Source of the DNA: Sagittula sp. P11
GTDB taxonomy: Bacteria; Pseudomonadota; Alphaproteobacteria; Rhodobacterales; Rhodobacteraceae
Assembly: GCF_002814095.1 (NCBI RefSeq)
Contig: NZ_CP021913.1
Coordinates: 248,001 to 312,000 of the forward strand
Direction: 5' to 3'
DNA length: 64,000 bases
Shown here: in pieces, positions 57,105-60,118 of the stretch
Position numbering within the stretch: the stretch's first letter is position 1
Layout of the letters: each line of letters starts with the position of its first letter
The notes under the pieces: generated by a model
Databases searched by the model: none
Told to the model about the DNA's origin: nothing
The model's input: the letters and a program-made list of their open reading frames with translations, nothing else
Made by a program: the position numbers and the translations under genes

Positions 57105-59015
57105 TTACCAGCAGGACACCAGCACGGTCATGTCGGTCGCCAGCGCGGTCAGGTCCTCGGGCTCCATGATGCCGCCGGACACCTGGCTGCCCGCGGTCAC
57201 GCCGTTGGCGCGCAGGAAGTCGAGGATCATCTCGCCCTTGGCGGCAAAGTTCACCTGGTCGGGCAGTTGCCGTCCGCCTTCCGTCTCGCGCGGCAGCAGC
57301 ATTCCCATGACGGAGCCGCCTGCGTCGAAGACCGGGCCGCCCGCATCGCCCGGCATCGCCGAGAGCGCAAGGCGCTTGACCTGCGGTTCGCCCGACAGGC
57401 CGCGGGTGTCCTCGAGCGTGCCGAAGGTCAGGGTCGGCGCGGTCAGCACGCCGCCGAAGGAGAAGCCCGCCACCGCGACCTCGGACTGGAGCCGCTGCGT
57501 GCCGGTGGCGAACTGCGCCACGCGGCGGGGGGCCAGGGTTTCCTCGGGCCGCAGCAGCGCCACGCCCAGCGACGCATCGCGCGCCACCACCTGCGCGGTG
57601 TAGCTGCCGTTGATCGTCACGCGCTCGCACTGGGCCACGGCGTCGGCAGAGGTCAGCACGGCACCGCCCGGCGCGACGAAGAAGCCCGAGCCGTTGCCCT
57701 TGGGCGTGCGTACCTTCAGGCCCGACACGAGGTCGACCGACTGGCCGTCGTCCGACACCGTCGCCGGGTCGAGCACGCCGGGAATGCGCTGGTAGCTGTC
57801 TTGCATCAGCGCCAGCACGCGCGAGCGGCGCTCCTCGTCGTTGGCGGGCCAGACAAGGGTGAAGCCCTTGATCTCGCCGTCGCGCAGCCCGACCTCGGTG
57901 TGGCTGACGATGCGGGAGTTCGCCCCGGTCAGCAGGAAGCCCGCGTTGTCGCGGCGGCGCTCGCCCTCGACGGGGACGATTTCCAGCGTCTGCATGATCT
58001 CGTAAAGCCCGTTCAGCGTGTCGCGGTCGCCCGGCTGGGAGATCAGCAGCACCTGCGCCGGCAGGTCGGTCTTCGAGCCGTAGATCGCGAAGGGCGCCTC
58101 GTAACGGTCGAACTCCACAACGCCAAGCGGCATCTGCATGACGATGCCGGCGCGCTGGTCGACGCGGTCGGCCATGCCCATGCCGTCGAGCACGGCGTTG
58201 TACTGGCCCAGAAGCGCGGCGCGCTGGCGCGAGGTCAGGACGCCCGTGGGCTCGTAGCCGTTGGCTTCCTGCCATCCGGCCATCGAACGCCGGGTGCCGG
58301 GGCCGAAGGCGCCGTCGATGCGGCCCTCGTAGAAACCCGCCCACTGGAGCGCGATCTGCAGCATGTCGCGCGCCTCGCGGTCGAGCTCCGCCTCGGAGGC
58401 GCGGGCCTCGCGCGGGGTTTCCTCGGGGATCGCGGGGGCGGCCGGTTCGGGCGCGGCCTGCGGTTCCGGTGCGGGCGCGGGCTGCTGCTGCTCCGCCGGT
58501 GCGGGCTGCTCCTCTTCGGCAAGCGCGGCGGCGAGGTCGTCGGCGGTCAGCGGCTGTTCCTCGGTCGCGGGCGCCTGGGCCGTGTCGGTCGGCGCGGCGT
58601 CGTCCTGCGACGGCTGGACCTCGGGCTGGGGCGCCCCGGCGGTCGTGTCCTGCGCATCCTGCGGCGCGTCCAGATCGACCTGCGCCCCCACCGGCCAGAA
58701 CTGGCGGCCATAGACACGCGAGGTCTCGACATAGCTGTCGGGCGGGATCGCGCCGGAGCGCATCAGCTCGCCCAGGAAGGCCTCTGCCTCGTTGCGGTCG
58801 GCATAGGGGCCCACGGCCACGCCATACCAGCCGCCGCCAAGCGAGAACCCGTTCACATTGTTCAACCGCTGGGAAAACTGGCGGACACTCGACTGCGCCC
58901 CGGCCAGCGACGTGCGCGCCTCGACCTGGATGAAGAACCGTTCTTCCTGTTGCGCGTGAACGCCCTGCCCCAAAAGAACCAGCGCAAAAACAAGGGAAAT
59001 CAGATGTCTTGGCAT
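57105..59015 (-). CDS. SPOR-peptidoglycan-binding-pseudo-trypsin protein
   Basis: 636 residues from the ATG at 59015, with a signal peptide (residues 1-22, PRHLISLVFALVLLGQGVHAQ). Order: a SPOR-like domain (about 26-95; RFFIQVEARTSLAGAQSSVRQFSQRL...GGGWYGVAVGPYADRNEAEAFLGELMRSGAIP), a Pro/Ala/Glu/Gln-rich linker (about 105-200), a peptidoglycan-binding type 1 domain (about 212-262; LQIALQWAGFYEGRIDGAFGPGTRRSMAGWQ), an intervening region, and a trypsin-like domain (about 440-615). In the last, the His position of the usual TNAHVV reads TSADAV, the Asp region reads ASLGVALLR, and GDSGGP reads GDAGGP. All three triad residues look lost, so the domain is probably not a protease. It lies in the periplasm, and may bind peptidoglycan or another protein. 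Confidence 0.88.
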   Translation of the reverse strand: MPRHLISLVFALVLLGQGVHAQQEERFFIQVEARTSLAGAQSSVRQFSQRLNNVNGFSLGGGWYGVAVGPYADRNEAEAFLGELMRSGAIPPDSYVETSRVYGRQFWPVGAQVDLDAPQDAQDTTAGAPQPEVQPSQDDAAPTDTAQAPATEEQPLTADDLAAALAEEEQPAPAEQQQPAPAPEPQAAPEPAAPAIPEETPREARASEAELDREARDMLQIALQWAGFYEGRIDGAFGPGTRRSMAGWQEANGYEPTGVLTSRQRAALLGQYNAVLDGMGMADRVDQRAGIVMQMPLGVVEFDRYEAPFAIYGSKTDLPAQVLLISQPGDRDTLNGLYEIMQTLEIVPVEGERRRDNAGFLLTGANSRIVSHTEVGLRDGEIKGFTLVWPANDEERRSRVLALMQDSYQRIPGVLDPATVSDDGQSVDLVSGLKVRTPKGNGSGFFVAPGGAVLTSADAVAQCERVTINGSYTAQVVARDASLGVALLRPEETLAPRRVAQFATGTQRLQSEVAVAGFSFGGVLTAPTLTFGTLEDTRGLSGEPQVKRLALSAMPGDAGGPVFDAGGSVMGMLLPRETEGGRQLPDQVNFAAKGEMILDFLRANGVTAGSQVSGGIMEPEDLTALATDMTVLVSCW

Positions 59016-59164: not shown

Positions 59165-60118
59165 ATGTCCGAGACCCAGCAAAAGAGCCTGCACAAACCC
59201 GCCTCCTTCCAGGAGATCATCCTGCGACTCCAGACCTACTGGGCGTCGAAAGGATGTGCGATTCTGCAGCCTTACGACATGGAAGTCGGGGCCGGCACCT
59301 TCCACCCGGCAACCACGCTGCGGGCCCTTGGCAACCGCCCCTGGACCGCCGCCTACGTGCAGCCCTCGCGCCGCCCGACCGACGGGCGCTACGGCGAGAA
59401 CCCCAACCGGCTGCAGCATTATTACCAGTACCAGGTCATCATCAAGCCGTCCCCGCCGGACCTTCAGGCGCTCTACCTCGGCAGCCTCGAAGCGATCGGC
59501 ATCGACATGGCGCTGCACGACATCCGCTTCGTGGAAGACGACTGGGAAAGCCCGACGCTGGGCGCCTGGGGGCTGGGCTGGGAGGTCTGGTGCGACGGCA
59601 TGGAAGTCAGCCAGTTCACCTACTTCCAGCAGGTCGGCGGCCACGACTGCCACCCCGTCTCCGGCGAGCTGACCTACGGGCTGGAACGGCTGGCGATGTA
59701 CGTCCTCGGCGTCGACCACGTGATGGAGATGCCGTTCAACGACCCGCAGTCGCCCATCGCGCTGACCTACGGCGACGTCTTCCGCCAGACCGAAGAGGAA
59801 TACTCGCGCTTCAACTTCGACACCGCCGACACGGCGCTCCTGCTGCGCCACTTCGAAGAGGCGGAGGCCGAATGCGCCGCCATCCTCGCGCGCGGCGCAG
59901 AGGACCCGAAGACCGGCAAGCGCATCGTCATGGCGCATCCCGCCTACGACCAGTGCATCAAGGCCAGCCACATCTTCAACCTGCTCGACGCCCGCGGCGT
60001 GATCTCCGTCACCGAGCGGCAGGCCTACATCGGCCGCGTCCGCGCGCTGGCCAGGATGTGCGCCGATGCCTTCGTCACCACCACCGCGGGCGGCTACGAC
60101 AGCGGCGCGGCGGCATGA
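59165..60118 (+). CDS. glyQ: Glycyl-tRNA synthetase alpha subunit
   Basis: 317 residues. Motifs: [71 protein letters not shown] and [15 protein letters not shown], the bacterial alpha2-beta2 enzyme. It charges tRNA-Gly together with GlyS, encoded 1.8 kb downstream. Divergent from the pseudo-trypsin gene. Confidence 0.98.

Follow-up and report, generated by a model that had tools for sequence, protein, structure and literature searches.

A trypsin-fold domain without a catalytic triad in a cell-wall-type protein family encoded beside glyQ in Rhodobacteraceae

Gene and domain organization

The window, i.e. the whole stretch of 64,000 nucleotides analyzed here, contains on its minus strand an open reading frame that runs from an ATG at 59015 to a stop codon finishing at 57105. 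The encoded protein is predicted to be secreted and comprises SPOR, PG_binding_1, middle and trypsin-fold domains; its gene is divergently oriented with respect to a glyQ-like gene. The features delimited at this locus, in window positions, were as follows:

57105..59015, minus strand: whole gene, encoding a secreted protein of 636 amino acids with SPOR, PG_binding_1, middle and dead trypsin-fold domains (open reading frame and Pfam)
58953..59015, minus strand: Sec-type signal peptide, residues 1–21 (MPRHLISLVFALVLLGQGVHA), without a lipobox (read from the translation)
58761..58943, minus strand: SPOR domain, residues 25–85, with Q30 and W63 kept and no arginine at the two aligned patch positions (G65, A67) (Pfam and alignment)
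58422..58682, minus strand: Ala/Pro/Gln/Glu low-complexity linker, residues 112–198, with model pLDDT mostly below 50; the fastest-evolving part
58212..58376, minus strand: PG_binding_1 domain, residues 214–268 (Pfam)
57741..58205, minus strand: middle alpha/beta domain, residues 271–425, conserved in the family (alignment and model)
57108..57707, minus strand: trypsin/HtrA-fold domain without catalytic triad, residues 437–636 (Pfam and structure matches)
57642..57644, minus strand: D458 (GAC) in the position of the catalytic His (codon read on the DNA, and alignment)
57627..57629, minus strand: C463, invariant, candidate disulfide partner of C635 by inferred pairing (alignment)
57564..57566, minus strand: G484 (GGC) in the position of the catalytic Asp (codon read on the DNA, and alignment)
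57342..57344, minus strand: A558 (GCG) in the position of the nucleophile Ser, within GDAGGP (codon read on the DNA, and alignment)
57111..57113, minus strand: C635, invariant, one residue before the C-terminus (alignment)
59165..60118, plus strand: glyQ-like gene (glycyl-tRNA synthetase alpha subunit), conserved divergent neighbour, named from sequence

Three of the domains were assigned from Pfam matches exceeding the respective gathering scores: 33.8 bits for SPOR (gathering score 21), 45 bits for PG_binding_1 (gathering score 23) and, for Trypsin_2, a match covering residues 442–572 with an E value of 8.6e-15. The middle domain, of 155 residues, had no match in Pfam and no sequence match in PDB, and may constitute a new domain family.

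An AlphaFold model of residues 271–636 was obtained with a mean pLDDT of 80.9. The earlier note on this DNA, made from the letters alone, had proposed a structure comparison as a check on its reading of a trypsin-like region without a triad, and the model did match HtrA-type folds, namely DegS (Z 17.4, rmsd 3.4, 161 residues), MucD (Z 17.2, rmsd 1.8, 145 residues) and HtrA1; Foldseek agreed, and the trypsin domain took up the lists of structure matches. The modelled fold is the one found in the HtrA/DegP/DegS/MucD proteases (S1C). Unlike these enzymes, the window protein has no catalytic triad, and the Pfam scan found in it no PDZ domain, one or more of which are usual in HtrA. In an AlphaFold model of the full-length protein, the cleft loops 536–556 and 577–590 had pLDDT values below 50, and the modelled shape of the cleft is therefore uncertain. 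The best sequence-profile match in PDB was to MarP (Rv3671c), with an E value of 2.4e-11 to 3lt3, an entry corresponding to the Ser343Ala inactive mutant. However, the score against the NCBIfam model NF033740 was 38.4 versus a cut-off of 250 bits, and the window protein differs from MarP in the absence of the triad and in the presence of SPOR and PG_binding modules in front of the trypsin-fold domain.

The catalytic triad is absent throughout the family

The earlier note had reported an Asp (GAC) replacing the catalytic His, a Gly in the region of the catalytic Asp and an Ala (GCG) replacing the nucleophile Ser, and all three substitutions were confirmed by reading the codons on the DNA. Loss of the triad proved to be general: among 116 distinct orthologues, 109 had no triad residue, seven had one, and none had two or three, i.e. 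no orthologue with an intact triad was found. The His position was mostly occupied by Glu (57 sequences), Ala (19) or Asp (17), and the Asp position by Gly in 106 of the 116. In the Ser position, Ala (71), Val (13) and Thr (12) predominated, the whole range comprising A, V, T, I, W, E, F, R, M, Y and S. A single triad residue, one His and four Ser in total, was kept or regained in the isolated orthologues L039, L054, L119, L190 and L195.

The family was compared with 39 outgroup homologues bearing the same pair of cysteines, of which 38 had the full triad and one had Thr in place of Ser. A Cys right after the His position was common to the dead and active groups, as was a Cys at the extreme C-terminus wherever the C-terminus was covered, and the pair was retained in 76 of 76 and 49 of 49 sequences in two partly overlapping sets. 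Because both cysteines are shared by the dead and active groups, the alignment frame is secure. The existence of a triad at shifted positions was ruled out by the alignment against the 39 triad-bearing homologues.

Two observations could suggest that the trypsin-fold domain is still a hydrolase, with other residues replacing the triad: 74 of the 116 orthologues have Asp or Glu in place of the catalytic His, and the oxyanion-loop glycines are retained. However, the family has no conserved candidate nucleophile, the occupant of the Ser position varies widely, and the invariant C463 and C635 are also present in the triad-bearing relatives. Since the substitutes at the triad positions vary, the family does not share one new chemistry at the active site, and we regard continued hydrolysis by this domain as extremely improbable.

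Distribution of the family and linkage to glyQ

The protein was searched for in 395 Rhodobacteraceae genomes with a threshold of E ≤ 1e-30, and an orthologue was present in about 338 of them, as counted by hand from the listed table. When 289 genomes sampled from the whole class were searched, full-length matches were confined to Rhodobacteraceae, and matches outside this family covered only the trypsin part, of roughly 200 residues.

The glyQ gene divergently adjoins 72 of 75 orthologue loci, a count that leaves out the window itself. The three loci with no glyQ in the flank were L108, L114 and L117, of which at least L114 and L117 start at a contig end. In 26 further genomes with glyQ and without a convincing orthologue, no family gene was found in the fetched glyQ flank; G023 has a variant, described below. 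None of the 39 active homologues had glyQ as a neighbour. Among the loci compared, adjacency to glyQ is restricted to the dead group, and the dead protein can thus be recognised by where its gene lies as well as by its sequence.

Selection on the trypsin-fold domain and its loss in some lineages

Pairwise dN/dS ratios of the trypsin domain ranged from 0.03 to 0.31, similar to those of the other folded domains and, in most pairs, lower than those of the linker, the values being rough because of partial saturation of synonymous changes. Conservation in the family was 92–100% at both cysteines, at the core glycines and in the GDxGGP loop. Judged from these comparisons, purifying selection acts on the dead domain. 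Sequencing error and decay in a single strain were ruled out by the 116 orthologues and the low dN/dS.

Two glyQ-linked loci encode variant orthologues. At L120:1498-2661 (G290:C1) the protein ends directly after the middle domain, with no downstream trace of a trypsin domain; at L201:1246-2886 (G023:C12) an Ala-rich tail replaces the trypsin domain and an apparent second SPOR-like repeat is present. Both proteins keep the SPOR, PG_binding and middle domains, and no trypsin domain was found in any frame nearby. In some distant orthologues (L122, L124) the trypsin domain was very degraded. Its absence in G290 and G023 indicates that the domain is useful in most lineages and dispensable in some.

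The truncated and tailed variants, together with the degraded domains of L122 and L124, would fit a protein whose working core is formed by the SPOR, PG_binding and middle domains, the dead trypsin domain being a slowly eroding structural cap. Such erosion is at odds with dN/dS ratios about as low as those of the other folded domains and with the conservation of the core glycines, the GDxGGP loop and the cysteine pair, and we consider it an unlikely description of the family.

Relationship to active proteases

A tree of 91 rows of trypsin domains, rooted at the midpoint and with a bootstrap not fully settled, placed the dead domains on one side of a branch of length 0.89 with 100/100 support. 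Adjoining this branch were the active Rhodobacteraceae sequences L045, L002 with L046, and L123, i.e. the nearest active relatives in the tree belong to the same bacterial family. One of them, L123 (G162:C166), combines SPOR, PG_binding and a recognisable middle domain (E 1.4e-8) with an intact triad. It shares the four-domain order and the cysteine pair with the window protein, from which it differs in its intact His, Asp and Ser and in that no glyQ neighbour was seen at its locus. On sequence grounds, L123 is likely a living example of the ancestral state. Trypsin-fold enzymes carry the triad ancestrally, so the direction of change is from active to dead, and the simplest reading of the alignments and tree is that an active protease with this four-domain arrangement lost catalysis once, within Rhodobacteraceae. 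Given the triad-bearing four-domain relative in G162, the family seems to have once been a protease of the cell wall.

The genome that contains the window also encodes a triad-intact paralogue (G000:C1:1021370-1022800, labels L002 and L044) with a diverged N-terminal part. MamO, an alphaproteobacterial protein with a dead HtrA fold, promotes MamE proteolysis (PMC4794232), and the presence of an active paralogue in the same genome raises the idea that the window protein works partly in this manner, activating or steering an active HtrA-type periplasmic protease. However, close active paralogues were found only in a minority of 100 Rhodobacteraceae genomes searched, whereas the dead protein is present nearly everywhere, and the membrane domain through which MamO acts on MamE is absent from the window protein; a role of this type thus appears quite improbable. 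The data do not support a dead protein that is obligately paired with a closely related active paralogue, such paralogues being uncommon.

The SPOR domain and peptidoglycan binding

In RlpA, residues Q270 and R302/R309/R311 touch the glycan or build its basic patch, and septal localization of FtsN needs residues including Q251, W283 and R285 (PMC6895207). In the family studied here, Q30, equivalent to RlpA Q270, was kept in 76 of 78 orthologues, and W63, equivalent to FtsN W283, in 72 of 78. The positions of RlpA R309 and R311 are taken by G65 and A67 in the window protein and are small or non-basic in the family, with Arg or Lys in 0 of 78 orthologues. The position of FtsN R285 likewise has Gly/Ala in the window protein and neither Arg nor Lys in the 78 orthologues (GWNRVVIGP versus GWyavalGP, a weak match that gives the register only). 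The claim of the earlier note that the SPOR and peptidoglycan-binding modules are intact holds in that both give Pfam matches, but the SPOR domain has no arginine at the aligned positions of RlpA R309/R311 and FtsN R285; the support for peptidoglycan binding, which had also been put forward, consists of these two domain matches (SPOR and PG_binding_1). The basic patch of SPOR domains can be made from different residues (PMC6895207), and glycan binding by the SPOR domain of this family could therefore still take place.

Targeting to the division site through recognition of denuded glycan by SPOR, a suggestion that overlaps with the best explanation given in the Discussion, draws on the SPOR match above the cut-off and on the conserved Q30 and W63. 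The Gly and Ala residues at the RlpA arginine positions, the non-basic residue at that of FtsN R285 and a glyQ neighbourhood that offers no link to division argue against it, and we hold this targeting to be doubtful. A SPOR protein from outer-membrane vesicles has been reported in D. shibae (Dshi_0924; PMC7901474); it was not placed in the glyQ-linked family.

DISCUSSION

As the alignments, the tree and the structure model show, the family has a domain of predicted trypsin fold that lacks the catalytic triad, is conserved, belongs to one clade and is encoded at a fixed locus. From these sequences we infer that the domain of the window protein has lost protease activity. The term pseudoprotease, used in the earlier note, is strongly supported by the family-wide loss of the triad, its single origin, purifying selection and the HtrA-like model.

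The gene product is probably a secreted, periplasmic pseudoprotease that serves as a peptidoglycan-anchored scaffold or ligand sensor. The SPOR and PG_binding_1 domains would hold the protein on the sacculus, and the long flexible linker would supply reach. The dead domain, still given its shape by the GDxGGP loop, the core glycines and the cysteine pair, would bind but not cleave its ligand, either a peptide or a protein. A more specific version can be put forward tentatively, as possible though somewhat short of probable: the protein would represent an undescribed, Rhodobacteraceae-wide cell-wall pseudoprotease, descended from a catalytically active protease of the cell wall with this domain arrangement, in which the dead HtrA cleft and the new middle domain sense or hold at the sacculus a peptide ligand, either stem peptides or an envelope protein.

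By analogy, MamO of Magnetospirillum is the closest studied precedent. It is an alphaproteobacterial protein whose HtrA-like domain is no longer catalytic but has retained another role, one that in the window protein is predicted, and it shows that a pseudoprotease of HtrA fold can be retained for non-catalytic work (PMC4794232). MamO has a TauE transporter domain, which the Pfam scan did not find in the window protein. MamO also binds metal, with a surface di-histidine site, has a role in the magnetosome, and has its nucleophile Ser replaced by Thr. The window protein has lost every residue of the triad, and its accompanying domains are of peptidoglycan-binding types.

No description of the glyQ-linked family was found in the open-access literature. 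To our knowledge, bacterial pseudoproteases conserved across a whole family have rarely been documented, MamO being the best-studied example that we found. Annotation from the domain match alone would label the genes described here as serine proteases. The family combines deep sampling, one inferred loss of catalysis, a relative of the same architecture with an intact triad, fixed synteny and natural domain-deletion variants; in genetically tractable Rhodobacteraceae, these features allow a direct test of why a dead protease is retained.
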